In this document: piece after piece, positions 46,569 through 60,173 of the stretch
How positions within the stretch are numbered: the stretch's first letter is position 1
Layout of the letters: the number at the start of each line of letters is the position of its first letter
Source of the DNA: an uncultured Dysgonomonas sp.
GTDB lineage: Bacteria; Bacteroidota; Bacteroidia; Bacteroidales; Dysgonomonadaceae
Length of the DNA: 64,000 nt
NCBI RefSeq assembly: GCF_900079725.1
Contig: NZ_LT599032.1
Location: forward strand, 60,948 to 124,947
Direction: 5' to 3'
Translations under genes and position numbers: made by a program
Notes under the pieces: model-generated
What the model saw: the letters and a program-made list of their open reading frames with translations, nothing else
Told to the model about the DNA's origin: nothing
The model's database searches: none

Positions 46569-47001
46569 ATGAAGCCTGCCCAAATTCTCTTCCTGCTATC
46601 CCTGTGGGTAGCATTACCCGGTTTTAGCCAATTGAACAATTCTCACAATCATCTTCGCCCCGGCGATGTGTTAATCAAACAACAGGTAGAATATAGAGAT
46701 CCAGGAAATGCGGGAAAAGACCGGCTTTGGGATTTCAGTAATCTCAAGACACTGAATAACGCCTATACCCTGACATATTCATTACCGCCATTGGAAGGGG
46801 ATAGTGTCTATATACTGGGATAATGTGTCTTTCGAGCTATACTCGATCGAAGGACTGCCTGTAAAGAAGATAAAGACACAAAAGAAGACAGTAGGCAGTT
46901 ATTATGAAACGATTGATTGTTCGGGTTTGTTTCCGAAGAATTATGTGTTGAGGATTACTGCTAATGGATTGATTTTGAATGAAGTGGTGATTAAAAAATG
47001 A
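46569..47001 (+). pseudogene. Broken secreted protein: signal peptide part and type IX-like C-terminal domain in different frames
   Basis: 46569-46823 encodes 84 residues with a signal peptide (ending GFSQ) and the start LRPGDVLIKQQVEYRDPG. 46804-47001, in another frame, encodes the end ELYSIEGLPVKKIKTQKK, GSYYETIDCSGLFPKNYVL typical of a type A C-terminal sorting domain. In related RHS loci these belong to one longer secreted protein, so an internal deletion plus frameshift near 46805 has fused the two ends. The last 4 bp overlap the next gene's ATG. It could still be two short peptides, but a broken gene fits better. Confidence 0.6.
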
Positions 47002-50000
47002 AAAAACGTAAGACTATGAAAAAATATATAATAGTTATAGTGTTATTAATCATTGCATTGAATGGCTACTCTCAATTATCGAATGATGGAGTTGATTATC
47101 AGATATCATCCAGACATTTATCTCCGGAAGCTTCTCAATTTATGAGGTATGGTAATACTCCCACCCGGAATTTTTATGGAGAACTCGATTTATCAATACC
47201 CTTGTATGTATATAGAGACCGTGACTTTGAAATACCTATCAGCCTGGTATATAACAATGATGGCTTTAAGCCAAATGAGCATGAAGGGATGATTGGCCTT
47301 GGCTGGAATCTAAATATAGGAGGAGCTATAACTCGAAAAGTAGAAGGCGGCTTGCAGGACGAGGGCAGTGATGCTTTAACCCAAGGTGTTTTAAGTGCGG
47401 CAAAAAGTAATTTTTATAAATATGATATTCCTTTTAATGAAAAGATAAGACAAGGAATAATATGTTCAAGAGAAAACAATAGTAACAATATTGTAAATGC
47501 TCCGGGAAATGTATCTTCTCATAAACATCCAAGCTACAGTAATTACGGGGAACTCGGTCCTGACTTATTTAATTTTAATATGCCCGGGCACTCTGGTCGG
47601 TTCAACTTTACTTGGGATGGAAGTATTCAAATAAAGGGAAATCAACCATACAAGGTTATATTAGATAACTATTTCTCAAGCGACACAAATTCTAAAGTCA
47701 CTATTATATCTCCTGACGGCTATCAATATGTTTTTGGAGGTAATTCAAATTCATTGGAAACAACAAGTGTTTTAACACCTCAAACACCATTCAATCCGGT
47801 AAAGACCATTGTATCGTCGTGGTTCTTATCTAAAATAATCGCACCAAATAAAAGAACAATTGAGTTTATATATAAAGAAAAAGAATCAAAACATAACATT
47901 ATACGTAAAAATGTTGCGCAAAGGAAGTCAATAGATGTGAATCAGAAAAATATTACCCAAATATCTGAACAAGGAAGAATCCCAAAGGAAGATGGATATA
48001 CATTCGAGCTTATAAGCCAGACTTATTTATCGAAAATCATTATTGATGGGGATGTTACTATTGATTTTCTGTATAAGGAAAAAACTAAAAAATTCTATGA
48101 AGATGCTGATATTGACAATCTGTACCGTTCTTATAATACAATGAATCTGGCATTAGACCAGATTAGTATATCGTATGGTATAAAACCTATAAAAAAGATA
48201 AACTTCCATCAAGATTTTTTAGGAGGAAACTATACCCGGTTCTTTCTTTCGAAAGTATCTGCCGGTAATGAAGACTATACTTTTAGTTATTATAATACGG
48301 ACAAGATACCGATACCGGACCAGTCTTGTATTGACCATTGGGGATATTATAATGGGAATAATAATACAAACAATAATGGACAAAATCTCTTAATGCCACG
48401 AATGGATATAGCCTACGGAAATTTCAATATTTTTCCATATCCTTATTTTGAAGAATATATGGTACGTAAAGCTGATGAAGAATCAAGCAAAGTAGGCATG
48501 ATAAAATTTATGACTTATCCTACCGGAGGAATTAGTAACTTTTACTTTGAAACACATAAAGGTCTGGATTATGAGGTGCGTAAAATTCAGGGTCAGGAAG
48601 AAACTTTTGTAACCAGAAACGAAGCCGGAGGTCCTCCTCCATTAGGTATTGCTGGAGGAGTCCGGATAAAGGCAATTCAAGACATCGATGAAGATGGTAA
48701 TATATATAATAGACGTGATTTTTTATATCCTAAAGGAATACTTACTCATTATCCTCACTATCTTAAAGAAAAAGCTTCATTAAGTGGATGGGCATACATA
48801 GAATGTTATATACTACCTACATCCAGAGGGAACTATCCTACAGACAGGCATGTGCAGTATGCCGAAGTTGTGGAAAAAACAAATGCAGGCTCTTATATTT
48901 ATAAATATTCATCCTATTTGGATAAAGAGAATAGGGATTTATACGACAGCACTATACCCCATTATGTTTATAATCCACAGGTTTCATGGTATCCTTTCGC
49001 CGAGATAATGGATATAAGGGGTACCGACAAATCTTATCGTAGAGGACTATTAAGAGAGAAGGTAATATTAAATAATGAAAATGATACAGTATATAAAGAA
49101 GTTATCAAACATAATATACTGCAGCCATCATTATCAAATTATACAAATGCCATATACCATGGAGAGACTATGACAAATAAGTATACTATTGAAAATTTTG
49201 CATATCTCCCGACAGAAAAAAAACAGTCAACATATTTCCAAAACAATCTTGTAACGAGAACAACTCAGTATGAATATAATAATAAAGGAGTTGTTTCGAA
49301 AGAAACAGATGTGGATAATAGTATAGTTATAAAATATGTATATCCTTATGACAAATCGGTATCTCCATATACAGATATGGTTTCTCAAAATATTCTGAGT
49401 CCGGTTATTGAACAAGAAACCAGTAGGAATAGCAAACGATTATCACAAAAGATCAGGGAGTATTCAGGATTTCATAATAATAAGCTTTATCTACCATCTA
49501 AGATATATTCGGTTATAGGTAGTAGTGAAAAGGTTTTGGATGCCGAATTAAAGAAATATGACGAATATGGCAACTTGGTACAGTTGACAACCAAAGATAA
49601 TATAAGCAATGTATATTTATGGGGATACAAAGGTAAATACTTATTGGCCGAAGTAAATAATACAAGCTATGATGATGTGAAAAATGCATTAGGAGGTAAA
49701 ATTCCGGAAAGCCTATCATTAGAAGCAGGCTCAGATACAACTTTAATTCAGAGTTTGCATCGGAGTCAATATTTAAAAGATGCACAAATTAGCACTGTCT
49801 ATCATAAACCGTTAATAGGCGCGACTAAAATGATTGATCCGCAAATAATAAGTGTCAATTATGAATATGATATCAATAACAGGTTGGCTAAAATAAAAGA
49901 TAATGATATGAAGACTCTTACTTCATATGAATACAATCTATTCCCATATCCACCTATTTTTATTGGTTTTGATGTAAAAGATAAATATTATGTAAATGAT

Positions 50001-51179
50001 GTATCTCCATTTAGTGTTACTAAAAGTGGTGGAACTGAGCAGTTTGCTTGTAAGTGGTTGATAAAGAAAGGAAATGGAGAAGTTTTGTTCCAGAATGATT
50101 ATTCAAGTTCTTTTTATATTAACCATAATTTCCGTCATACAGATACTGGTTCTGCACAGATTACATGTTTTGTAAAAGATGCTAATACAGGAAAAATTCA
50201 GACAGAAACCCGGGATTTTGTAATAGAACTTGAGCCTTTCAAATATACAATAGAAGTGTTGGATGAATATATTTTTAATAGTTCTAAGGCGTTTGAGGCA
50301 GTAGTAAAGAGAGGCAGTGGAGATTTTTCTTACGATTGGTCGCTGAAAGATATTTCAAATAGCTCCAACGTTGTTACTATTCTCGATAAGCCAAACTCGG
50401 GTAGTAAATTTCAAGCCACGTTCTCCCGATCAGGTACAATACAGCTAAAATGTGTAATAAAAGATAAAGTGACTGGAAAAACTGATACAATGGTAAAAGA
50501 TATTATGGTCAAGGCCTTTATCCCAGACATATATATATCTGGACCTTGTGCTGTAGGTCAACTCAATATTTTTTATGCTAGTGTACAGGGGGGATCTGGC
50601 AATTATACATATTCTTGGCTTGTGAAAAATGCAGATACAAATGAAGTTATATACCGCTCATCGGTTCCGTCTTCATCAAATTCATATACTCTGACTTATG
50701 CTCAGCCGGGGAAGATAGAAGTTTCATGTACCATCACAGATACTTCTAGTGGGAAAACTGAAGAGAGAACTGAATTGTTCGATTTAATTCCTCCTCTTAT
50801 AGAATTTAAAAATAGTACAACAGTGAGAGACCCCCAAACGAGAGAAACGACCACTACAGCTGTCTTGGACTGTTTTGAAGAAGTTACCTTGGAGGTGGAA
50901 ATATTGGGGATCTTCAGCTCCATATATGGCAAAGCTACTTTTACTGTGATTAAAGGCAACAATACAATCTATAATAAGGTTCTTACTCGAACTGTAGATG
51001 ATAACACTTATCTATCGGAGAAGGTTCTCATAACAATTCCAGCAGGAATTTCAACTATGAAAATTCAATTAAGTAATTATGGAGGAGCGAGCCTTCAGGC
51101 AGGCATGATATTACATCAAGTAATGAGTGATACAAAAATGAAAATAGGTTCAGAAAGAAGACTTATGAGTGGCTTTTAA
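46998..51179 (+). CDS. Large secreted RHS-partner protein with YD-like repeats and PKD-like domains
   Basis: 1393 residues; an internal ATG six codons in would give a cleaner signal peptide (KKYIIVIVLLIIALNGYSQ). The N-terminal ~150 residues carry GELDLSIPLYVYRDRD and GMIGLGWNLNIGGAITRKVE, as in SpvB/TcaC-like starts of RHS partners. The middle has YD-like strands (YEYNNKGVVSKE, YEYDINNRLAKIKDN near 954). From about 975 to 1290 there are several PKD-like Ig repeats. In Bacteroidota it regularly precedes the DUF6443-RHS gene, and together they probably build the toxin-enclosing shell. Function inferred from context. Confidence 0.7.
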   Translation: MKKRKTMKKYIIVIVLLIIALNGYSQLSNDGVDYQISSRHLSPEASQFMRYGNTPTRNFYGELDLSIPLYVYRDRDFEIPISLVYNNDGFKPNEHEGMIGLGWNLNIGGAITRKVEGGLQDEGSDALTQGVLSAAKSNFYKYDIPFNEKIRQGIICSRENNSNNIVNAPGNVSSHKHPSYSNYGELGPDLFNFNMPGHSGRFNFTWDGSIQIKGNQPYKVILDNYFSSDTNSKVTIISPDGYQYVFGGNSNSLETTSVLTPQTPFNPVKTIVSSWFLSKIIAPNKRTIEFIYKEKESKHNIIRKNVAQRKSIDVNQKNITQISEQGRIPKEDGYTFELISQTYLSKIIIDGDVTIDFLYKEKTKKFYEDADIDNLYRSYNTMNLALDQISISYGIKPIKKINFHQDFLGGNYTRFFLSKVSAGNEDYTFSYYNTDKIPIPDQSCIDHWGYYNGNNNTNNNGQNLLMPRMDIAYGNFNIFPYPYFEEYMVRKADEESSKVGMIKFMTYPTGGISNFYFETHKGLDYEVRKIQGQEETFVTRNEAGGPPPLGIAGGVRIKAIQDIDEDGNIYNRRDFLYPKGILTHYPHYLKEKASLSGWAYIECYILPTSRGNYPTDRHVQYAEVVEKTNAGSYIYKYSSYLDKENRDLYDSTIPHYVYNPQVSWYPFAEIMDIRGTDKSYRRGLLREKVILNNENDTVYKEVIKHNILQPSLSNYTNAIYHGETMTNKYTIENFAYLPTEKKQSTYFQNNLVTRTTQYEYNNKGVVSKETDVDNSIVIKYVYPYDKSVSPYTDMVSQNILSPVIEQETSRNSKRLSQKIREYSGFHNNKLYLPSKIYSVIGSSEKVLDAELKKYDEYGNLVQLTTKDNISNVYLWGYKGKYLLAEVNNTSYDDVKNALGGKIPESLSLEAGSDTTLIQSLHRSQYLKDAQISTVYHKPLIGATKMIDPQIISVNYEYDINNRLAKIKDNDMKTLTSYEYNLFPYPPIFIGFDVKDKYYVNDVSPFSVTKSGGTEQFACKWLIKKGNGEVLFQNDYSSSFYINHNFRHTDTGSAQITCFVKDANTGKIQTETRDFVIELEPFKYTIEVLDEYIFNSSKAFEAVVKRGSGDFSYDWSLKDISNSSNVVTILDKPNSGSKFQATFSRSGTIQLKCVIKDKVTGKTDTMVKDIMVKAFIPDIYISGPCAVGQLNIFYASVQGGSGNYTYSWLVKNADTNEVIYRSSVPSSSNSYTLTYAQPGKIEVSCTITDTSSGKTEERTELFDLIPPLIEFKNSTTVRDPQTRETTTTAVLDCFEEVTLEVEILGIFSSIYGKATFTVIKGNNTIYNKVLTRTVDDNTYLSEKVLITIPAGISTMKIQLSNYGGASLQAGMILHQVMSDTKMKIGSERRLMSGF

Positions 51180-51205: not shown

Positions 51206-54200
51206 ATGAAAAAAATATACCTGCATATTCTACTATTTTTATTCAGCCTGAGCCTGTACCCTCAGTCTAACCTGACCCTGAATACTGTCCGTACCTCCGG
51301 CGGTAGCGAGACCGCCTGCCAAAGCATCGTGCTACAGCCCGGTTTCAGTTTTGTATCGGCTACAGGAAAGAGCCTGACCCTGAGTGTCAATCCCTCCACC
51401 TGTGACCCTTACGCCGGGGCTGCCTCCAGTCTGAGCAACGACCATAACTATATACAGACCAAGACCTATACCACCGCCGACGGCAGCCGTTACATGGAAG
51501 CCATCCAGTATTTCGATGGCCTGGGACGGCCCGTACAAACCGTACAGCGAGGCATCACCCCCAATGCCGCCGACCTGGTCGCCCTTCAGGAATACGATGC
51601 CTTCGGGCGTGAGAGCAACAGCTGGCTGCCCGCCGTACTTACAGGCAACAACGGGGCCTATGCAGACCCTGCATCGGTAATGGCCAAGGCCAAAGCAGCA
51701 GCAGCCAATGGGGGAGTAGCCGACACCAACCCATTTTCCAAACCCATTTACGAAGCATCACCCCTGAACCGTATAATCAGCCAGTACGGGCCGGGAGCCG
51801 ACTGGCATAAGGATTACGGGACAACCAGCAAGGCTGTCGCTACCGAATACCTGACCAACAGCCAGGCCACAGAGCTGATCTGTAACCTGTACCGGGTTAC
51901 AGGATCCGGTACGTCCACCGGATTGACCGAATCGGGCACTTATGCCAACGGTGAACTCTATGTGACCAAGGTAACGGACGAAGACAGCAACGTATCCTAT
52001 GAGTTCAAGGACAAGCTGGGACAGGTAGTCCTTACCCGACAGATGAGCAAGGTAGGCACTTCCGATAAGGCTCACGATACCTATTATGTCTATGATGACT
52101 TCGGCAACCTGTCTTATGTACTGCCGCCGATGGCTGTCGATACCATTAGCAAAGCAGGTGTCAAAGGAGAGCTTATCGAACTGTGGGGTTACCTCTATAA
52201 ATATGACAACCGCAACCGCTGCGTGATCAAGAAGCTGCCGGGAACAGACCGCATATACTATGTCTATGACAAAGCCGACCGTCTGATATTCACTCAGGAC
52301 GGAGAGCAGCGCAAGAAGAATGAATGGACCTTTACCATCCCCGACGATTTCGGCAGGGTGGTACTGACAGGAACATGTACCACGGTAAATAGCGCAGCTA
52401 TCAGGTCGGGGCGGTTCGATGATTACCTGATAAAGGCAGAATTCAGCACGACGGGTACTTATCACGGATATAATGTCAAAGTAGGTCAAAGCACATTCAA
52501 TGAACTTACCATCCAGAACCCGGTGGTACATACAGCCAGTTACTACGACAGTTATAAATTCCGCGCCTTATCCGGTTTTTCCGCTGACAATATAAATTAC
52601 AAGACCTCCGGCGAGCCTGCCATCTATCATACACGCTACGGGACGGATGCAAGCACTTATGAACATAAAGGCTTACTGACCGGTACTGCTACCCTGCTGC
52701 TGGATGGAAGTACTGCCACGAAGTACCTTTATACAGGTATGTATTACGACAACAAGAAACAACTTATACAGTCGCACAGCACTCACCATCTGGGAGGTGT
52801 TGACAGTGAATTTACAGCCTATAACTTCACAGGGCAGCCGGTCAACCGTAAGACCCGGCATACCATGGGCACAGCCACCCAGATAGAGCATTACACCTAC
52901 CTCTACGACCATGCCGGGCGTCTGGTGGAGACAAAACATAAGTTGAATTCAGGAGCCGAAGTCGTCCTGGCCCGCAACGAGTACGACGAACTGGGCAGGC
53001 TCAAGGCAACCACAAAGAGCGGCAAGGCAAACCTGAAAACCACATATGCCTACAATATACGCTCGTGGACAAAGTCGATATCAGGGCCTTTGTTCAGCCA
53101 GACATTGTACTACAATGATAAAGTAACAGCGCATAACTATAGTGATTATACCCCTGCCTACAACGGCAACATATCGGGCATGGAATGGAAGGCAGAGACC
53201 GAAGCCATGAGGAGCTACCGTTTCAAATATGACAAACTCTCCCGGCTGAGCCATGCAGCATACAACGGAGTAGTCTCGGGAGGCTATTACAATGTTTCCT
53301 ACAGTTACGACAAGCATGGCAATATGCAGACCCTGCACAGACGGGGCAAGATGACTGCGGGTAATAATGCGGAAGATTATAATTCGGTGGACAACCTGAC
53401 CATGACCTATACAGGCAACCAGCTGGTCAATGTAAGGGACAGGGGAGTAAATGTCAGTCTGGCCGGATCGGCTGACTTCAAGGATCATTCGGGGGCGCAG
53501 GGTGTATACACCTATAATGCCAACGGCGCCATGAATAAAGATACCCATAAAGGAATAACCGGGATTCAATATAATTCACTAAATTTACCACAGTCTATAG
53601 AGATAGATAACCCAAATGTAAAGGGCAGGACAAAATATATGTATACAGCCACAGGTGTGAAGCTACAGGTTATCCATGAGACGGATATGAACCTTCAGGC
53701 GGCTACCGTTATGGCTACAGCCCCTTTCAGTACGCAGGCAACCGATACCAAGACCACCGACTACGTGGGTAATAAGGTCTATGAGAACGGCACACTCAAG
53801 CGCACCTTGATAGATGGGGGATATATTGAAGGTACAACTTATTATTTCTTCCTGACCGACCACTTAGGCAATAATCGTGTAGTAGCTAATGCAAGCGGCA
53901 CAGTCATACAGAAGAATCATTACTATCCCTTCGGGATGGCTTTTGCAGAGAATACAACGGCTGGGCAGGGGGTACAGCCATACAAGTATAATGGTAAGGA
54001 GTTGGATGGAATGCATGGGTTGAATATGTATGATTATAGTGCGAGGTATTATGAGCCTAGTATTGGGAGGTTTAGTACGGTGGACCCATTAGCGGAGAAG
54101 TATTATAGTATTAGTCCGTATGCGTATTGTGCAAATAATCCGATTAAGTATATAGATTTAAAGGGCGATAGTTTAACCCATCATGGAGAAAGTGCCCTTT

Positions 54201-54769
54201 ATGAAAGAGTAGATAGAGTTCATAATAACTACCTAGATGGATATTATACATTTACAACTACTTCGAATGGTGTAACATCTCTTGTCGCCACAGGTAAGGA
54301 TAGGACACAAGATCCTGCAGCATTTGCAAAAGCTGAAGCTTATTTTAATGAGTTAAACACTGTTGTAAATGGACCTGGGATGACACATGTAAGGTTAGTG
54401 GACAATAGCGAAAATGCATTAGTCGGTAATTTTAACCTGGGGATGATTGATATTGGGGATATAGAACAGCTACCTCTTGTACAAGGTAATAATATTGTAA
54501 CACAAGGCAGTACATTAATACATGAAACTGTAGAACAATATCAAACACAGGTTAAAGGTTTACATAAATATAATGATGCACATAGGGCAGCAACAGTTTC
54601 AGAATCCAATATTATAGGTGTTACCATAGATCCTAACAGAACAATAGAGAATATATCGCGTCCTGGACCTGCTACTGGATTCATGAAAACTCAAGCATCA
54701 GATGGACGACAACAGACTATGATGTTTAGATATAATAATAATATTAGTATAGGAAATATATTTAGATAA
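51206..54769 (+). CDS. DUF6443-domain RHS protein with C-terminal toxin-like tip
   Basis: 1187 residues, signal peptide ending LYPQS. DUF6443 follows (YFDGLGRPVQTVQRG), then YD/RHS repeats (YYVYDKADRLIFTQDGEQ, EYDELGRLKATTK) and the RHS-associated core at about 888-988 (YYPFGMAF, YKYNGKELD, YDYSARYYEP, GRFSTVDPLAEKYY). The core ends IDLKGD instead of the usual DPxG. The last ~200 residues are a different, AT-rich tip with HETVEQY (His1106, Glu1107, Glu1110) then NDAH, possibly a variant metal site. The immunity candidate starts 4 bp later. Probably a secreted polymorphic toxin; whether the type IX system exports it is unknown. Confidence 0.85.
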   Translation: MKKIYLHILLFLFSLSLYPQSNLTLNTVRTSGGSETACQSIVLQPGFSFVSATGKSLTLSVNPSTCDPYAGAASSLSNDHNYIQTKTYTTADGSRYMEAIQYFDGLGRPVQTVQRGITPNAADLVALQEYDAFGRESNSWLPAVLTGNNGAYADPASVMAKAKAAAANGGVADTNPFSKPIYEASPLNRIISQYGPGADWHKDYGTTSKAVATEYLTNSQATELICNLYRVTGSGTSTGLTESGTYANGELYVTKVTDEDSNVSYEFKDKLGQVVLTRQMSKVGTSDKAHDTYYVYDDFGNLSYVLPPMAVDTISKAGVKGELIELWGYLYKYDNRNRCVIKKLPGTDRIYYVYDKADRLIFTQDGEQRKKNEWTFTIPDDFGRVVLTGTCTTVNSAAIRSGRFDDYLIKAEFSTTGTYHGYNVKVGQSTFNELTIQNPVVHTASYYDSYKFRALSGFSADNINYKTSGEPAIYHTRYGTDASTYEHKGLLTGTATLLLDGSTATKYLYTGMYYDNKKQLIQSHSTHHLGGVDSEFTAYNFTGQPVNRKTRHTMGTATQIEHYTYLYDHAGRLVETKHKLNSGAEVVLARNEYDELGRLKATTKSGKANLKTTYAYNIRSWTKSISGPLFSQTLYYNDKVTAHNYSDYTPAYNGNISGMEWKAETEAMRSYRFKYDKLSRLSHAAYNGVVSGGYYNVSYSYDKHGNMQTLHRRGKMTAGNNAEDYNSVDNLTMTYTGNQLVNVRDRGVNVSLAGSADFKDHSGAQGVYTYNANGAMNKDTHKGITGIQYNSLNLPQSIEIDNPNVKGRTKYMYTATGVKLQVIHETDMNLQAATVMATAPFSTQATDTKTTDYVGNKVYENGTLKRTLIDGGYIEGTTYYFFLTDHLGNNRVVANASGTVIQKNHYYPFGMAFAENTTAGQGVQPYKYNGKELDGMHGLNMYDYSARYYEPSIGRFSTVDPLAEKYYSISPYAYCANNPIKYIDLKGDSLTHHGESALYERVDRVHNNYLDGYYTFTTTSNGVTSLVATGKDRTQDPAAFAKAEAYFNELNTVVNGPGMTHVRLVDNSENALVGNFNLGMIDIGDIEQLPLVQGNNIVTQGSTLIHETVEQYQTQVKGLHKYNDAHRAATVSESNIIGVTIDPNRTIENISRPGPATGFMKTQASDGRQQTMMFRYNNNISIGNIFR
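53566..54165 (+). repeat. RHS core repeat, copy A (in the full-length gene)
   Basis: This ~600-bp 3' core is repeated nearly base for base at 55578-56175 and 57523-58123. It begins TCAATATAATTCACTAAATT and ends around the DPxAEKYY...NNPxxxID codons. Variation between the copies is mostly silent in the first 450 bp and grows towards the tip junction. Confidence 0.9.
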
Positions 54770-54773
54770 TACG

Positions 54774-55322
54774 ATGAAAAGATATTTTATTTTTTTACTA
54801 ATTGTTTTAAACTGTAATTTGGGTGCTGTTGCATCTAATATAAACATTGACACATTGTTTGTTAATAATGTAGTATCGATAGAAAATTATCTGAATTTAG
54901 TAATTGATGGTTACATATTACCATCAGGAAATATAGATAATCCTATTGCCGCGAGCATAGATGGTAGACCTGTAAAAACAAATTACACAGATTCAACTAA
55001 GTTTTATATCTATGGTGAATATGCAGATTTTTTGAATATGTTCGAAGATATTAGTAACTATAAATGGGAACGAAATTCTTATGTTCCCAATATTATGATA
55101 AATCGACAGGAGATTTTGATGGTTAAGGATTGGTATGAGACTAATAGAAAAAGGCTAAATTGTGAGAAAGTCAAAAGATTGTTTCAATGGTATAATAGTT
55201 TAACACCAAATATACATTTGCTAAATAAAGAATCTTTAGATAAATATCATCAAGAAAAAGAATTAATAAAAAGACTTGATACCTTTATTGATTATGAATC
55301 ATCGACTTGCGTAGACCAATAG
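54774..55322 (+). CDS. Candidate immunity protein of the main RHS tip
   Basis: 182 residues with a signal peptide (MKRYFIFLLIVLNCNLGAVA), so it acts in the periplasm or at the envelope. The rest is acidic and helical (DFLNMFEDISNYKWERNSY, VKRLFQWYNSLTPNIH). It starts 4 bp after the toxin-bearing RHS gene with no room for a separate promoter, as cognate immunity genes do. No known Imm family is recognised. An extracytoplasmic immunity protein suggests that the tip is active outside the cytoplasm. Confidence 0.65.
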   Translation: MKRYFIFLLIVLNCNLGAVASNINIDTLFVNNVVSIENYLNLVIDGYILPSGNIDNPIAASIDGRPVKTNYTDSTKFYIYGEYADFLNMFEDISNYKWERNSYVPNIMINRQEILMVKDWYETNRKRLNCEKVKRLFQWYNSLTPNIHLLNKESLDKYHQEKELIKRLDTFIDYESSTCVDQ

Positions 55323-55331
55323 TTTTTGTAT

Positions 55332-55385
55332 TGCATAGTAATAATAGCAATCCTGTCAATAATGGAGCAGGATAATTTATCTATT
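55332..55385 (+). repeat. Decayed spacer hairpin, copy 1 (after the main immunity gene)
   Basis: GCATAGTAATAATAGCAATCCTGTC ... GCAGGATAATTTATC follows the pattern of the better preserved copies at 55454, 57399 and 59641, but its stem is imperfect. It marks the end of the first toxin-immunity unit. Confidence 0.55.
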
Positions 55386-55416
55386 CCATATTCCGTCACA
55401 AGGGATTAGCAATCAC

Positions 55417-56811
55417 TTGTTTGATATTGAAAGGATTTACAATCCGCTACAAGAATCCTATCGGTTTATCATCAGTAGGATTATTTATCTATACTATATA
55501 CCTTTTGTTCAGCGAAGCAAAAAACAACAACACGAAAAAAGTGTAATATCTGTTACCTTTGTTACCTTTTCCAATACTCAATATAATTCACTAAATTTAC
55601 CACAGTCTATAGAGATAGATAACCCCAATGTCAAGGGCCGGACAAAATATATGTATACAGCCACAGGAGTGAAGCTACAGGTTATCCATGAGACGGATAT
55701 GAACCTTCAGGCGGCTACCGTTATGGCTACAGCCCCTTTCAGTACGCAGGCAACCGATACCAAGACTACCGACTATGTGGGTAATAAGGTCTATGAGAAC
55801 GGCACACTCAAGCGCACCTTGATAGATGGAGGATATATTGAAGGTACAACTTACCATTTCTTCCTGACCGACCACTTAGGTAATAACCGTGTAGTAGCAA
55901 ATGCCAATGGTACAGTAATACAGAAGAACCATTATTATCCCTTCGGGATGGCTTTTGCAGAGAATACAACGGCAGAACAGGGGGTACAGCCTTACAAGTA
56001 TAACGGTAAGGAGTTGGATCAGATGCATGGGTTGAATATGTATGATTATAGTGCTAGGTTTTATGAGCCGGGTATAGGGAGGTTTAGTACGGTGGATCCG
56101 CATGCGGAGAACTATTACAATATATCACCTTATGCATATGTCGCTAATAATCCAATGGCATTTATTGATCCGAATGGTATGGATAGCATCTATTATCAAA
56201 GCAACTACGAACCAACTCCGGGGAGAAAAAATATAATGACATCACTTAATACCAGTTATAGTTTGGTGGCAAGAGTCGGTAAAGGAGGACAGGACGTTTA
56301 TAGTGTAACCTTTTCTGATGTCGTAGTTACACCTCAAGGAGGAATCTACACAAATGGAGGTGTTCTTACTAATTATCATGGAATCGTAATTGGTGAGAAA
56401 GGACTAGAAATCGTTAGCCCTGAGTTTGATGCTTTGATGATAGGCAGGGGGATTGCGAATGCAGTTGGGAAAAAAGTGGCCTCAGAAATTGTAGGAACGA
56501 CTACGAATAAAACATTAAAAACTACAGAACTCAATCCCACCCATTATATAACAAAATCAAAAAATGAGATGCAAAAATTAGTTAACAGTGTTAATGAGAA
56601 AGGAGTATTACATCCAATACAATATGTAGAAAGTAATGGAGTAAATTATATAGTAGATGGGCATCATCGATACTTTGCCGCCATAAGGACTGGAAAAATA
56701 GATATTCCTGTAAATAAAGTTTCCTTGCCGTATGGTTCTTACAAAAACACAAGAGATCTCGTTCCTGAAGGAAAAATGCTTGGTTTTTGGAAATATATGA
56801 AACCTAAATAA
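55417..56811 (+). CDS. Orphan RHS cassette 1: core fragment with ParB-like toxin tip
   Basis: RHS core similarity starts at 55578 without any signal peptide or RHS body. The frame stays open back to 55417 through spacer DNA, but the only start there is a TTG. After the core (IDPNGMD) comes a new tip of about 210 residues. Its end resembles ParB/sulfiredoxin-type nuclease domains: LNPTHYITKSKNEMQKLVN, HPIQYV, VDGHHRYFAAI. ParB-like nuclease tips are known in polymorphic toxins. An immunity candidate follows 9 bp on. Probably silent until recombined onto the full-length gene. Confidence 0.7.
   Translation: MFDIERIYNPLQESYRFIISRIIYLYYIPFVQRSKKQQHEKSVISVTFVTFSNTQYNSLNLPQSIEIDNPNVKGRTKYMYTATGVKLQVIHETDMNLQAATVMATAPFSTQATDTKTTDYVGNKVYENGTLKRTLIDGGYIEGTTYHFFLTDHLGNNRVVANANGTVIQKNHYYPFGMAFAENTTAEQGVQPYKYNGKELDQMHGLNMYDYSARFYEPGIGRFSTVDPHAENYYNISPYAYVANNPMAFIDPNGMDSIYYQSNYEPTPGRKNIMTSLNTSYSLVARVGKGGQDVYSVTFSDVVVTPQGGIYTNGGVLTNYHGIVIGEKGLEIVSPEFDALMIGRGIANAVGKKVASEIVGTTTNKTLKTTELNPTHYITKSKNEMQKLVNSVNEKGVLHPIQYVESNGVNYIVDGHHRYFAAIRTGKIDIPVNKVSLPYGSYKNTRDLVPEGKMLGFWKYMKPK
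55454..55577 (+). repeat. Cassette spacer, copy 2 (hairpin plus lead-in)
   Basis: The hairpin AATCCTA...TAGGATT (55454-55482) precedes TTATTTATCTATACTATATACC and a lead-in with TTCAGCGAAGCAAAAAAC and TGTTACCTTTGTTAC (55551-55565), running straight into core copy B. The same string, nearly identical, precedes copy C. Confidence 0.8.
55578..56175 (+). repeat. RHS core repeat, copy B
   Basis: Near-identical to 53566-54165 of the full-length RHS gene. It keeps the reading frame into the ParB-like tip. Confidence 0.88.
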
Positions 56812-56820
56812 AATATTATT

Positions 56821-57258
56821 ATGGCTCTCTGGCAATATACATTTAATCTTGTACCTGAAAATACAATTAAGGATAAGGTACTTATTGATGAGGACGGTTA
56901 TTTTGATACTTCTCCATTGTGGCTGAAAAGTTGTAAAAAAATAAATATATTTGAGGATATAGGCATTTTATTACCCTTATCTGAATCATGGGATACAGAT
57001 ATAGTTCAATATGGTGATTTAAATTCAAATTGTATTGAGATTTATAAGAATCAAAATTTTATAGAATCAGCTTCTTTTCGAATTAATTTTTTAAGCAATT
57101 ACAAGGAAATACTTAAAGAAATTATACGAATTTGTTTTTCCGAAAAACTATTAATTCTGGACGAATTCTTTAATGTTGTTCCATATGATTTTGATAAAAT
57201 CTATAGTGTGATAGAGAATTCGCAGCAAAAAAAATACTATATGAAATTGATTCAATAA
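56821..57258 (+). CDS. Candidate immunity protein of cassette 1
   Basis: 145 residues, no signal peptide, so cytoplasmic, which fits protection against a nuclease-type tip. It opens MALWQYTFNLVPE, with alternating strands and helices (GILLPLSESWDTDIVQYGD, LSNYKEILKEIIRICFSEKL). The acidic character and the MALWxYxFxLVP start recall small immunity families but no exact family is recognised. It is 9 bp after the tip gene on the same strand. Confidence 0.65.
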   Translation: MALWQYTFNLVPENTIKDKVLIDEDGYFDTSPLWLKSCKKINIFEDIGILLPLSESWDTDIVQYGDLNSNCIEIYKNQNFIESASFRINFLSNYKEILKEIIRICFSEKLLILDEFFNVVPYDFDKIYSVIENSQQKKYYMKLIQ

Positions 57259-57398
57259 AGAATTTAAATTATCTATACCCGTTCGGTATAGGTTTCATTT
57301 GCGTCGATTAAAAATCAAAACTTAGCTTTGAAAATAAACAATGAGAATTCTCTCCTTTGCGCAGGCTTGCAGCCTATGTATTACATAGCAATAATTAC

Positions 57399-57522
57399 AA
57401 TCCTGCCGATTTATCATCGGCAGGATTGTTTATCCATACTATATACCTTTTGTTCAGCGAAGCAAAAAACAACAACACGAAAAAAGTGTAATATCTGTTA
57501 CCTTTGTTACCTTTTCCCATAC
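57399..57522 (+). repeat. Cassette spacer, copy 3 (perfect hairpin plus lead-in)
   Basis: The 12-bp perfect stem AATCCTGCCGAT / ATCGGCAGGATT with 5-nt loop (57399-57427) is followed by the same lead-in as at 55484-55577, including TGTTACCTTTGTTAC (57496-57510). It is preceded by the ACATAGCAATAATTAC motif also seen in the other spacers. Confidence 0.85.
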
Positions 57523-58123
57523 TCAATATAATTCACTAAATTTACCACAGTCTATAGAGATAGATAACCCCAATGTCAAGGGCAGGACAAAATATACCTA
57601 TACAGCCACAGGAGTGAAACTACAGGTTATCCATGAAACGGATATGAACCTTCAGGCGGCTACCGTTATGGCAACAGCCCCTTTCAGTACGCAGGCAACC
57701 GATACCAAGACTACCGACTATGTGGGTAACAAGGTTTATGAAAACGGCACATTAAAGCGCATACTGATAGACGGCGGCTATATCGAAGGCACTACTTATC
57801 ATTTCTACCTGACGGACCATCTGGGCAATAATCGGGTAGTAGCCAAGGCGGACGGCACAGTAATACAGAAGAACCATTATTATCCCTTCGGGATGGCTTT
57901 TGCAGAGAATACAACGGCAGAACAGGGGGTACAGCCTTACAAGTATAATGGTAAAGAGCTGGATCAGATGCATGGGCTGAATATGTATGATTATAGTGCG
58001 AGGTTTTATGAGCCGGGTATAGGGAGGTTTAGTGCAGTGGATCCTCTGGCGGAGAAGTATCCGTGGATATCTCCATACGTTTACTGTAACAATAACCCTA
58101 TAAAATATATTGACCCGGATGGT
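57523..58123 (+). repeat. RHS core repeat, copy C
   Basis: Third copy of the core 3' segment, with a few more changes near its end (SAVDPLAEKYPWISPYVYC). It keeps the frame into the third tip. Confidence 0.88.
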
Positions 58124-58801
58124 TTAGATTGGGTAATGAGAGGTGTTGGAGGAAATGCTTATTATTACTATGATAAGGATGTTAAATCCTGGGATGATAT
58201 AAAAAATAAATACGGTGATGGTAAAATAGCGGGAAATGTAATGCTTATAAAAGAGGGACAACAAGTAAAAATCTCAGGTAAAGACGGTAATTCTATGGTT
58301 TACACGTTTAGTAATGAGAATAAGAGTTTCACCGATGCAAGCGGCAATGCTTTAGGAGAGATGGATATAATGTCAGGCAAGGGGTTTGCTGTAATAGGAA
58401 CAGGGGATAAAAATGTAGATGGCGCCACATTACATAATAATTTATTTGGAACTTCTACTACAGGAGGGAATAATCCACGAACCAATGATAAAACTGAAGA
58501 ATATTTTGGGTATTTACCTTTTCAAACCAATCAAGATAATTATTCTCTCAAACATGACATTGGATATAATGCGAAAGGAGCTAATGGTGCAGCAAGTGCC
58601 TTTACAAATATAGAGGTATTACCTGATGACTATAAATTAGCAGGGAGAAATGCACTCAATGCGCTCAATCCTTCTATAAGTGAAAGAGAGAGATGGAGGT
58701 CTATTGGAACTGCTGCTGCTTTTGGTGCAATCTCGGTAGTTAAAACTATAGCAAGCCCTGTTTTAAGTCCATTCGTTTATAAAAAGAAAGGAACAAAATG
58801 A
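57524..58801 (+). CDS. Orphan RHS cassette 2: core fragment with phospholipase A2-like tip
   Basis: In-frame core similarity starts at 57524, but the first possible start is GTG 57614 and there is no signal peptide, so it is an orphan tip. After IDPDGLD comes a tip of about 220 residues. Its middle has DNYSLKHDIGYNAKGANGAA and then VLPDDYKLAGR, a pattern like the His-Asp pair and following Asp of secreted or viral phospholipase A2 domains. A Gly/Ala-rich helix and KKKG end follow. It overlaps the next gene by 4 bp (ATGA). Lipase activity is inferred only. Confidence 0.68.
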   Translation, partial: QYNSLNLPQSIEIDNPNVKGRTKYTYTATGVKLQVIHETDMNLQAATVMATAPFSTQATDTKTTDYVGNKVYENGTLKRILIDGGYIEGTTYHFYLTDHLGNNRVVAKADGTVIQKNHYYPFGMAFAENTTAEQGVQPYKYNGKELDQMHGLNMYDYSARFYEPGIGRFSAVDPLAEKYPWISPYVYCNNNPIKYIDPDGLDWVMRGVGGNAYYYYDKDVKSWDDIKNKYGDGKIAGNVMLIKEGQQVKISGKDGNSMVYTFSNENKSFTDASGNALGEMDIMSGKGFAVIGTGDKNVDGATLHNNLFGTSTTGGNNPRTNDKTEEYFGYLPFQTNQDNYSLKHDIGYNAKGANGAASAFTNIEVLPDDYKLAGRNALNALNPSISERERWRSIGTAAAFGAISVVKTIASPVLSPFVYKKKGTK

Positions 58802-59271
58802 ATAAAAAGAAAATAATAACTATCGTTGTATTTATCATAATTATTGCTGGTTTAGGAGCGTATTTTTTCCAACCTGGAACATATGTAAATGCTCGAAATT
58901 ATCAATTAAAAGATGTAGCGTCATATGAAGAGCTTAGGGATAAGGTGGAACTTTTAAAAACAAATGATTCTCAATATAAAGCTTACTCGGAAGATTCAGT
59001 GGAATTTAAACCAGAAATAGATAATTTAGGTTATCTGACAATGTTTGTTCATTTACCAAGAGGGAAAGCGAATGTTTTTTTTAAGACAGACACAAAAAGA
59101 GGATTATCAGGTCAGGTTGAACTTAAATTGATTGGAGTTTCCCGAGATAGCATAGACCGTAGTTGGAAATGGTTTAATACTAACGAATTATCAAAAGAAG
59201 ATAATAAAAAATATATAAAATGTTTTGAATCTGAAATCTTAGATAAACTTGGTAAATGGAAAAGCAAATAA
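58798..59271 (+). CDS. Candidate immunity protein of cassette 2
   Basis: 157 residues with one N-terminal membrane helix (IITIVVFIIIIAGLGAYFF) and a periplasmic domain (VEFKPEIDNLGYLTMFVHLP, GQVELKLIGVSRDSIDRSW). The 4-bp overlap with the tip gene shows tight coupling. A membrane-anchored, outward-facing immunity protein fits a tip that attacks membranes from the periplasm. No known family is recognised. A strong terminator lies 28 bp downstream. Confidence 0.68.
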   Translation: MNKKKIITIVVFIIIIAGLGAYFFQPGTYVNARNYQLKDVASYEELRDKVELLKTNDSQYKAYSEDSVEFKPEIDNLGYLTMFVHLPRGKANVFFKTDTKRGLSGQVELKLIGVSRDSIDRSWKWFNTNELSKEDNKKYIKCFESEILDKLGKWKSK

Positions 59272-59406: not shown

Positions 59407-59652
59407 CTACTTTTTGTATGCCTGCCTAGTTTTAGCATGCTGAATTAGTCCATCAATCGAATACATGATACACTTTTTATCCTCCTCCGGCAGTTTCTGT
59501 ATAGATACCACCTTATCCAGCAATACATCCGTATTCCCTACCAGGTAATCCAGCGATACCCCCAACACCTGCGCCAGCTTCGCCGCCACTTCCACCGAAG
59601 GAGTCGCTTCCCCCCGCTCGCGCAGACGTCCCGTCTGAGTGTTGCGTAGCAA
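59407..59652 (-). pseudogene. 5'-truncated XRE-family regulator
   Basis: 81 residues from an ATG-like start within the cassette boundary. The sequence GEATPSVEVAAKLAQVLGVS, LDYLVGNTDVLLDKV is the second half of a helix-turn-helix XRE domain plus its tail (KLPEEDKKCIMYSIDGLIQH). The first helices of the domain are missing, and the break lies exactly where the repeated spacer (GTGTTGCGTAGCAATAATTA) begins. The RHS array has apparently expanded into, or been inserted in, this gene. The protein is unlikely to bind DNA. Confidence 0.7.
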
Positions 59653-59706
59653 TAATTATAATCCTGTCGGTATCATCATCGGCAGGATTATTTATCTATA
59701 ATATAC
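59641..59706 (+). repeat. Cassette spacer, copy 4 (array end)
   Basis: GCGTAGCAATAATTATAATCC then GTCGG...ATCGGCAGGATTATTTATC repeats the spacer hairpin of copies 2 and 3, followed by a TATATACCTACC like the TATATACC elsewhere. No RHS core follows; the array ends here. Confidence 0.75.
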
Positions 59707-60054
59707 CTACCCAATTCTTCTTATCCCAAACTCAATATACTCACTTCCTTTCTTTACAATTTCTGTTTCAACGATAGCCTTACGAATAAGCTTGTCGTTG
59801 AAACCATATTTCTTGCTTAAGATATCTTGAGTTGGTTTTACCGGGTTATCCCAATCAGACAGAGAGTTACTGAAGCCGAATTTGAAATGGATCTCATAAG
59901 GTGGTTCGGGTATCTTTATTTTAGGCAATAGCCAAAGCAGGGTATTCTCATATTGCTTGTATTTCTCTGTTTTGAATCGTTTACCTTTCCATACTTCGTT
60001 AACAGACAGAGGTTTTATATTTTTAGAAAAAGTTAAATAATGGCAGATAAACAT
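59707..60054 (-). CDS. RusA-like Holliday junction resolvase
   Basis: From ATG 60054, 115 residues; an upstream TTG (60108) would add a hydrophobic leader atypical of the family. The RusA pattern is visible: IKPLSVNEVWKGKRFKTEKY, then IHFKFGFSNSLSDWDNPVKP with the metal-binding Asp residues, and DILSKKYGFNDKLIRKA. RusA-type nucleases cut four-way DNA junctions and are usual in phages and prophage remnants. It is next to the XRE fragment, so both may be prophage leftovers flanking the RHS array. Confidence 0.8.
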   Translation of the reverse strand: MFICHYLTFSKNIKPLSVNEVWKGKRFKTEKYKQYENTLLWLLPKIKIPEPPYEIHFKFGFSNSLSDWDNPVKPTQDILSKKYGFNDKLIRKAIVETEIVKKGSEYIEFGIRRIG

Positions 60055-60173
60055 CCAAATAACAAGAAAAACGTATATTGCAAGTATTAAACTTAAATCT
60101 TTTGCCAAATATACACATTCAATAGGAATTGATCTGGTGATTTTCGGTTCATCCTATCAAAGATATTACTGTA

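Follow-up and report, generated by a model that had tools for sequence, protein, structure and literature searches.

Introduction

Arrays in which a full-length toxin gene is followed by orphan modules, each made up of a fragment of the shared core, an alternative C-terminal tip and an immunity gene, are already known from contact-dependent inhibition (CDI), Rhs and MafB systems. Here we analyze an array of this kind, headed by an RHS gene with a signal-peptide-like start, in the genome of an uncultured Dysgonomonas sp. (GCF_900079725.1, contig NZ_LT599032.1). The 64-kb stretch under analysis, hereafter the window, comprises bases 60948-124947 of this 5.22 Mb genome, which is a single contig, and it carries one full RHS gene ending in tip A followed by two orphan units ending in tips B and C (Table 1).

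The closest described counterparts are the orphan cdiA-CT/cdiI and rhs-CT/rhsI modules of E. coli EC93 and EC869, Salmonella and others, where a full gene also precedes ordered core-fragment/tip/immunity modules (PMC3150448, PMC3967940). Orphan toxins in these systems are described as mostly lacking start signals. The arrays behind cdiA reach eleven pairs, the orphan immunity gene of EC93 is expressed from an upstream promoter, and drawbacks of the reload model are pointed out in the same source (PMC3150448). For Salmonella, evidence has been presented that an orphan rhs tip was transferred to the main gene by recombination within a 522-bp stretch of 95% identity (PMC3967940). The MafB cassettes of Neisseria offer a second parallel, since a full secreted toxin gene there precedes alternative C-terminal cassettes that come with an immunity gene apiece. 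Some of these cassettes are potentially silent, with the start codon missing, and others potentially translated (PMC4287609). More generally, toxin-cassette arrays with immunity genes are reported across all major bacterial lineages, and the polymorphic toxin and polyimmunity loci described by Zhang et al. (2012) share with the present locus the cassettes with adjacent immunity genes, the exchange of tips by one crossover and the remnant immunity genes (PMC3482391). An orphan Rhs immunity protein has been reported to give protection (PMC10539506). Immunity genes kept after toxin loss, as in two tip-less relics described below, are found in the type VI secretion system (T6SS) orphan immunity arrays of V. 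cholerae (PMC5361080); the units described here differ in keeping an RHS core fragment and, usually, the tip.

The locus in Dysgonomonas is a real, well-formed member of the polymorphic-toxin arrays, with differences from each of these precedents. Its full gene, unlike those of the cdiA and rhs systems, combines a signal-peptide-like start with a DUF6443 domain, and it belongs to another N-terminal family and another lineage than MafB. The acquired interbacterial defence arrays of Bacteroidales likewise keep immunity genes after toxin loss, as the two relics do. Each orphan in the window has its own hairpin and promoter-like element, unlike the EC93 orphan, described as part of one transcript from an upstream promoter (PMC3150448). 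The open-licence literature consulted contained no description of promoters belonging to individual orphan units and nothing on DUF6443, and on Rhs in Dysgonomonas it gave a single paper, a survey of termite guts. What appears to be new here, judging from the sequence, is thus that orphan units carry a promoter-like head and that relics without a tip retain an immunity-like frame. We consider it moderately probable that the orphans are separately transcribed immunity units which double as tip donors, beside one export-competent RHS toxin carrying tip A.

Results

The end of the RHS core is present three times

A segment of about 580 nt, the 3' end of the RHS core, occurs at 53566, 55578 and 57523, and alignment confirmed the three copies claimed there by the original prediction, an earlier reading of the same DNA. 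Copy 1 shares 91% identity with copy 2 over 579 nt (53566-54144) and 86% with copy 3 over 591 nt (53566-54156), a length and identity that rule out a chance repeat. The description of the copies as near-identical holds for their first 300 nt, in which copies 2 and 3 are 97% and 90% identical to copy 1, and fails for the next 260 nt, where identity falls to 86% and 84%. A base-by-base alignment, which had been proposed as a check, set the edges of the homology and contained no gaps in 610 columns. Moreover, the non-coding spacers of about 120 nt preceding copies 2 and 3 are about 95% identical, so the repeat begins 5' of the core.

As had also been claimed, each core copy joins in frame to a different tip (of 200, 210 and 224 aa), so that three different tips stand on one core within the window, and an open reading frame (ORF) of 182, 145 or 157 aa, a different immunity candidate in each case, follows within 10 nt. 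Only the first copy has the signal-peptide-like start, the long RHS body and DUF6443 (E 2.5e-40), and its core end matches the Rhs_assc_core family (TIGR03696) with 67.3 bits (cut-off 32.5; E 1.3e-18) at residues 906-987. The orphan cores have no export signal and lie downstream of the full gene on the same strand.

Core copy 2 is a mosaic, because the sites at which it agrees with copy 1 and those at which it agrees with copy 3 are clustered: among 61 informative sites up to 54119, the maximum chi-square was 15.7, with a break between 53894 and 53895, and only 19 of 20000 shuffles were equally extreme. The ratio of dN/dS in the core was 0.085-0.096 among the three copies and 0.15-0.20 between the relics and the others. 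Such low values are compatible with translated orphans and equally with cores refreshed by gene conversion.

Promoter-like heads precede the orphan cores

Both window orphans open with a hairpin (AATCCTGCCGAT...ATCGGCAGGATT and variants) followed by TGTTACCTTTGTTACCTTTT, and a promoter-like element of the form TAnnTTTG stands just 5' of the truncated core in these two orphans as well as in both relics. In Bacteroides fragilis, TAnnTTTG has been deduced to be the -7 consensus of the primary sigma factor (PMC7366714). Of the 10 pairs in the hairpin, 4 are changed on both sides yet still paired in one or more of 21 sequences. The original prediction had viewed the orphans, for want of credible starts, as donors of tips; that they are promoterless donors is not supported, a promoter-like element standing directly before the truncated core of each. 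It had also named independent promoters together with signal sequences on the orphans as what would speak against its proposal, and the former are present at the sequence level, the latter absent.

The wider use of the motif was examined in twenty 20-kb samples of the same genome (400 kb, taken elsewhere than the window). GTTAC[CT]TTTG occurs three times on the two strands of the window: the plus-strand sites, 55552 and 57497, belong to the two heads, and the third, 12854, is on the minus strand. The slightly longer GTTAC[CT]TTTGT was found 14 times in the 400 kb, never within a gene and twice at an edge. The remaining sites all point at the start of a same-strand gene (12/12), eight of them from within 350 nt and four from farther away, compared with 55% of random intergenic positions. 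By eye, genes preceded by this motif include some which we take to be glmS, ruvB and trpS from their appearance.

To call heads in other units, we used a covariance model (R1) built from 21 heads, with a threshold of at least 50 bits within 800 nt upstream. R1 heads were detected on 28 of 61 orphans of the genus-wide set described below and on both relics of the own genome, that is on 9 of 42 when the 21 training sequences are left aside, and on none of 22 full genes. Eight further loci, which are the RHS-bearing ones among 20 stretches fetched for R1 matches, gave 11 heads on 18 orphans. The own genome holds five matches of at least 50 bits, four of them at RHS units, and the best score in the 400 kb sampled was 42.5 bits. 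Many matches of 50-60 bits were present in genomes G012, G014 and G017, and the surroundings were viewed for part of these. When the upstream spacers of 59 orphan and relic units were compared directly (blastn, E 1e-4), 75 of 162 same-genome pairs and 267 of 1549 cross-genome pairs were alike, many of the cross-genome matches being merely 20-50 nt of AT-rich sequence around the motif.

A scan for promoters of the sigma-70 type returned 40 sites against a shuffle mean of 31.5 and was uninformative here; the terminator-like hairpins of head type in that run were two, at 57397-57429 (minus strand) and 59658-59691 (plus strand). The promoter-like direct repeat, which we compared in orphan heads of G018, G014, G011 and the own genome, varies by species, and its two halves often change in step (GTTACC/GTTACC, GTCACC/GTCACT, GTCAGG/GTCAGG; mixed GTTAC/GTCAC in G014), as if it tracked a species-specific binding preference.

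Tip-less relics keep an immunity-like frame

Two further copies of spacer plus core lie in the same genome, at 463 kb (95%) and 1088 kb (83%). The relic at 1088 kb consists of a head and a core that reaches mid-core, the tip being gone, followed by a frame of 134 aa; that at 463 kb is of similar build (head, core, no tip), with a frame of 177 aa behind it. No frame as long arose in 200 dinucleotide shuffles of either region. The gene of the 463 kb relic shares 45% identity over 150 aa with a gene of G014 located behind an orphan whose tip frame has just 74 aa, and the gene of the 1088 kb relic matched by tblastn at 59% over 29 aa (locus L104) and 34% over 85 aa (L115). A likeness seen by eye between the latter gene and the one behind the full gene of G004 was discarded, as tblastn gave no such match. 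The 463 kb site lies between globin-like and MlaE-like genes (labels given by eye). At the equivalent chromosomal site, G017 has a head, a core remnant of 44 nt and a lipoprotein-like frame of 109 aa, and in G009 an orphan with a broken tip is located upstream of an MlaE-like gene.

The genome also carries a second full-plus-orphan array at 2.97 Mb, and its two DUF6443 genes each head an array. In this second array (L023, 2973561-2974723) the immunity gene behind the full RHS gene seems to be present in duplicate (169 and 170 aa), and one ORF resembling an orphan tip stands without a core (2974982-2975581). A further unit, L024 (2443292-2444841), is a mini-RHS of 312 aa with its own signal-peptide-like start and only the last piece of the core; its tip contains HExxH and precedes a lipoprotein-like gene.

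The full-plus-orphan layout is common in the genus

A core search over 61 genomes gave matches in 27, the own genome included, of which 21 are among the 25 genomes of the genus; the closest named relatives in it include Dysgonomonas and records labelled Prevotella, Bacteroides or Bacteroidales. DUF6443 was present in 20 of the 25 genomes of the genus. We examined 25 stretches, 20 from relatives chosen by this search and five from the own genome, and counted as an orphan any core end with an open frame of at most 400 aa before it. The stretches yielded 80 units in 23 of the 25, namely 19 full genes and 61 orphans, a count that includes the mini-RHS L024 and two contig-edge units that are possibly cut full genes. 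In every locus with both kinds (14/14) the full gene comes first and the orphans, up to seven, follow on the same strand. The layout is therefore common in the genus and not exceptional, and the rarity attributed to it by the original prediction was overstated, all the more since such arrays are described across bacterial lineages (PMC3482391).

An ORF of at least 80 aa starting between -40 and +50 nt from the tip stop was found behind 41 of 50 orphans (those with a tip frame of at least 100 aa ending inside the stretch) and 15 of 18 full genes. After enlargement of the set by eight loci to 33, the tip frame was at least 100 aa long in 61 of 75 orphans away from contig edges and broken in the other 14; among relatives, the core-selected set held 11 further orphans with tip frames below 100 aa.

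Loci L143 (G014:C7) and L153 (G017:C6) share the tip of their full RHS gene at 97%; three orphans follow it in G014 and none in G017, where a head is still present. As a natural experiment this pair was set aside, since the downstream genes look different and gain is indistinguishable from loss.

Tips, immunity candidates and exchange between species

The pattern H-E..E-Q-Y...A-H...E is invariant in three homologues of tip A, which we take to be metallopeptidase-like, and in tip C the residues HD..Y and D..L are invariant in four homologues, which we take to be phospholipase A2-like. The ParB-like domain of tip B matched PF02195 (E 2.5e-5) and TIGR00180 (E 1e-6), both below their cut-offs, and immunity candidate C matched PF14434 (Imm6) at E 0.025, also below cut-off. 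AlphaFold2 models had a mean pLDDT of 35.5 (tip A) and 54.9 (tip C), too low to be usable, and a profile of tip C searched against PDB gave nothing below E 0.15. The signal-like or membrane-anchor-like starts of immunity candidates A and C would fit targets in the envelope, and the lack of one in B a cytosolic target.

Tip families were compared with one genome per species. Tip A, the active one here, recurs in two of the 24 other genomes of the genus, where it lies in frames of 402 and 283 aa. Residues 1-118 of tip B recur in a 1255-aa frame of one species and residues 24-109 in a 997-aa frame of another. For tip C there were matches in four of the other genomes, none of them within a long frame, and one match has two internal stops. 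Over 295 genomes of the order, tips C and A gave one weak match each besides the own genome. An all-against-all comparison of 72 tips from the own and related genomes revealed further pairs with a tip on a full gene in one species and on an orphan in another, such as G004 full and G015 orphan (49% over 173 aa) or G015 full and G018 orphan (37% over 227 aa). These exchanges between species are old.

The mosaic core of copy 2, and some tip families that are carried by a full gene in one species but by an orphan in another, support the exchange of tips between species. The recombination through the core put forward in the original prediction stands to this extent, and swaps within a strain lie outside data of one genome per species.

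Discussion

If the orphans are indeed immunity units and tip donors at once, each would form its own transcription unit, running from the hairpin and the promoter through the truncated core and the tip to the immunity gene. The promoter of the head would keep the immunity gene transcribed, and the cell would be protected against relatives deploying tips B and C. Homologous recombination in the shared core would in turn move a tip together with its immunity gene between units and onto the full gene. This presupposes active promoters in the heads, a toxin-antidote relation between each tip and its immunity gene, and swaps onto the full gene within a strain, all of which are inferred. Units with a promoter-like head, with or without a tip and at several sites of one genome, would make protection and donation separable, as tip-less units could only protect and tip-bearing ones could do both. 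Natural comparisons would be plentiful in a genus that has such units by the dozen.

Several findings weigh against this reading. At 50 bits, 33 of the 61 orphans have no head, including all five of L140 and all three of L139. Conversely, 12 of the 20 stretches fetched around R1 matches contain no RHS core (one of them is a relic site), R1 reaches 96 bits next to unrelated genes of G017 and G014, and the own-genome match at 1640506 (56.8 bits) is away from RHS genes. The -7 element of G018, G011 and G015 is CACCTTTG, CAGGTTTG or CATCTTTG and not TAnnTTTG, and a clear -33 box, looked for by eye in the heads, was not seen. Immunity candidates A, B and C of the window reached the cut-off of no known immunity family and matched no other compared locus at E 1e-3; toxicity of the tips and immunity function are read from position. 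The matches of tip B to full genes cover its first half, without the ParB-like domain. Finally, several of the relatives' "broken" tips come down to one frameshift in a draft assembly, so that they count little as toxin loss and this point rests on the two relics of the own genome.

Because R1 also matches beside unrelated genes, we conclude that the heads are probably ordinary: they would be the usual terminator-plus-promoter signals of the genus, placed ahead of about half of the orphan units. The same matches led us to reject the head as an RHS-specific mobile or recombination element. A stronger form of the favored reading, which we hold more tentatively and with some doubt, would make the orphans of this genus autonomous immunity-memory genes. 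With their own terminator and housekeeping-type promoter, they would outlive the loss of the tip and occupy several chromosomal sites as one unit, the core serving as the exchange site through which a tip is reloaded onto the exported toxin.

In line with the original prediction, the orphans could instead be a silent store of tips, untranscribed or only accidentally transcribed, whose sole role is to act as recombination donors. Both orphan cores lack a signal sequence, copy 3 lacks the in-frame ATG of copy 2, the core is mosaic, and the orphans without a recognized head would fit a store of this kind. A precedent for it is the Salmonella rhs fragment mentioned above, which had no start signals and recombined through a geometry close to the one found here (PMC3967940). 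Against it stand the promoter-like heads of both window orphans and both relics, and the relics, which are unable to donate a tip, still keep an immunity-like frame. The idea is weakened by the heads and the relics, and we judge it unlikely.

Somewhat less likely still is that the array is a decaying record with no present function, in which each new tip has pushed the older one downstream. Displacement has been proposed as the origin of the T6SS immunity arrays in V. cholerae (PMC5361080) and of immunity genes strung out behind full toxins (PMC3482391), and the invariable position of the full gene ahead of its orphans, together with the broken tips of the enlarged set, is as displacement would leave them. 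The long open tip frames in most orphans of that set are not what decay would leave, and neither is a core dN/dS below 0.1, although the latter is not decisive, as gene conversion from a functional core could yield the same.

That the orphan core-tip is translated in the cytosol and forms a toxin-antitoxin pair with its own immunity protein, as argued for a Salmonella orphan rhs (PMC7043789), would agree with a promoter-like head before an open frame and with the in-frame ATG at 55651 in copy 2, but seems very improbable given the threonine codon at that position in copy 3 and in the 463 kb relic, and the starts of immunity candidates A and C, which by eye suit non-cytosolic targets.

Features of the locus and its surroundings

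Table 1. Features of the RHS array and adjoining sequence, in window coordinates
Feature	Position	Strand	Remarks
Partner gene	46998..51179	+	1393 aa, exported, RHS/YD-like (by eye); upstream in the same locus
Full-length RHS gene	51206..54769	+	1187 aa; signal-peptide-like start (by eye), DUF6443, RHS core, tip A
Core copy 1	53566..54144	+	RHS core end; extent of the match to copy 2
Tip A	54167..54766	+	200 aa; no Pfam match
Immunity candidate A	54774..55322	+	182 aa; signal-peptide-like start (by eye)
Head of orphan unit 2	55448..55570	+	R1 95.9 bits (training sequence of R1)
Hairpin of unit 2 head	55454-55482
Promoter-like element of unit 2 head	55554-55561		TACCTTTG
Core copy 2	55578..56156	+	Orphan; 91% to copy 1
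Tip B	56179..56811	+	210 aa; C-terminal ParB-like domain
Immunity candidate B	56821..57258	+	145 aa; no signal sequence by eye
Head of orphan unit 3	57393..57515	+	R1 107.8 bits (training sequence of R1)
Hairpin of unit 3 head	57399-57427
Promoter-like element of unit 3 head	57499-57506		TACCTTTG
Core copy 3	57523..58113	+	Orphan; 86% to copy 1
Tip C	58127..58801	+	224 aa; no Pfam match
Immunity candidate C	58798..59271	+	157 aa; N-terminal membrane-anchor-like segment (by eye)
Third copy of head hairpin	59619..59705	+	3' of the array, without core or promoter motif; R1 47.9 bits, model positions 7-52

The partner gene upstream of the full RHS gene gave a weak PKD match below cut-off and no NCBIfam match; by eye, genes of related appearance, with YHYQNQ or a similar ending, stand before the full RHS gene of L143, L153, L138 and the second array of the own genome. 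With regard to export, a search for the T6SS sheath (PF05943, VipB) gave no match in the own genome, although among 14 control genomes only E. coli matched and divergent Bacteroidales sheaths may escape this model.

Two short ORFs at 46569-47001 resemble the broken remains of a gene that, intact (382-383 aa), heads two other RHS loci of the own genome (L021 6827-7975; 2965092-2966243). At the other end, the third hairpin copy overlaps a broken HTH gene. What is left of this gene, an HTH_3 regulator, is its C-terminal half (59407-60108, minus strand), which now starts inside the copied hairpin element and adjoins a RusA-like ORF (PF05866, below cut-off). A 37-nt element, GCGCAGACG..CGTCTG..TTGCGTAGCAA, is located at 59620-59656 ahead of this hairpin and also in L021 (9616), L147 (4093), L151 and L152. 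It has six copies in the RHS loci of several species (329 kb in all) and none in 400 kb of the own genome, and is perhaps a repeat of the repetitive extragenic palindromic (REP) type.

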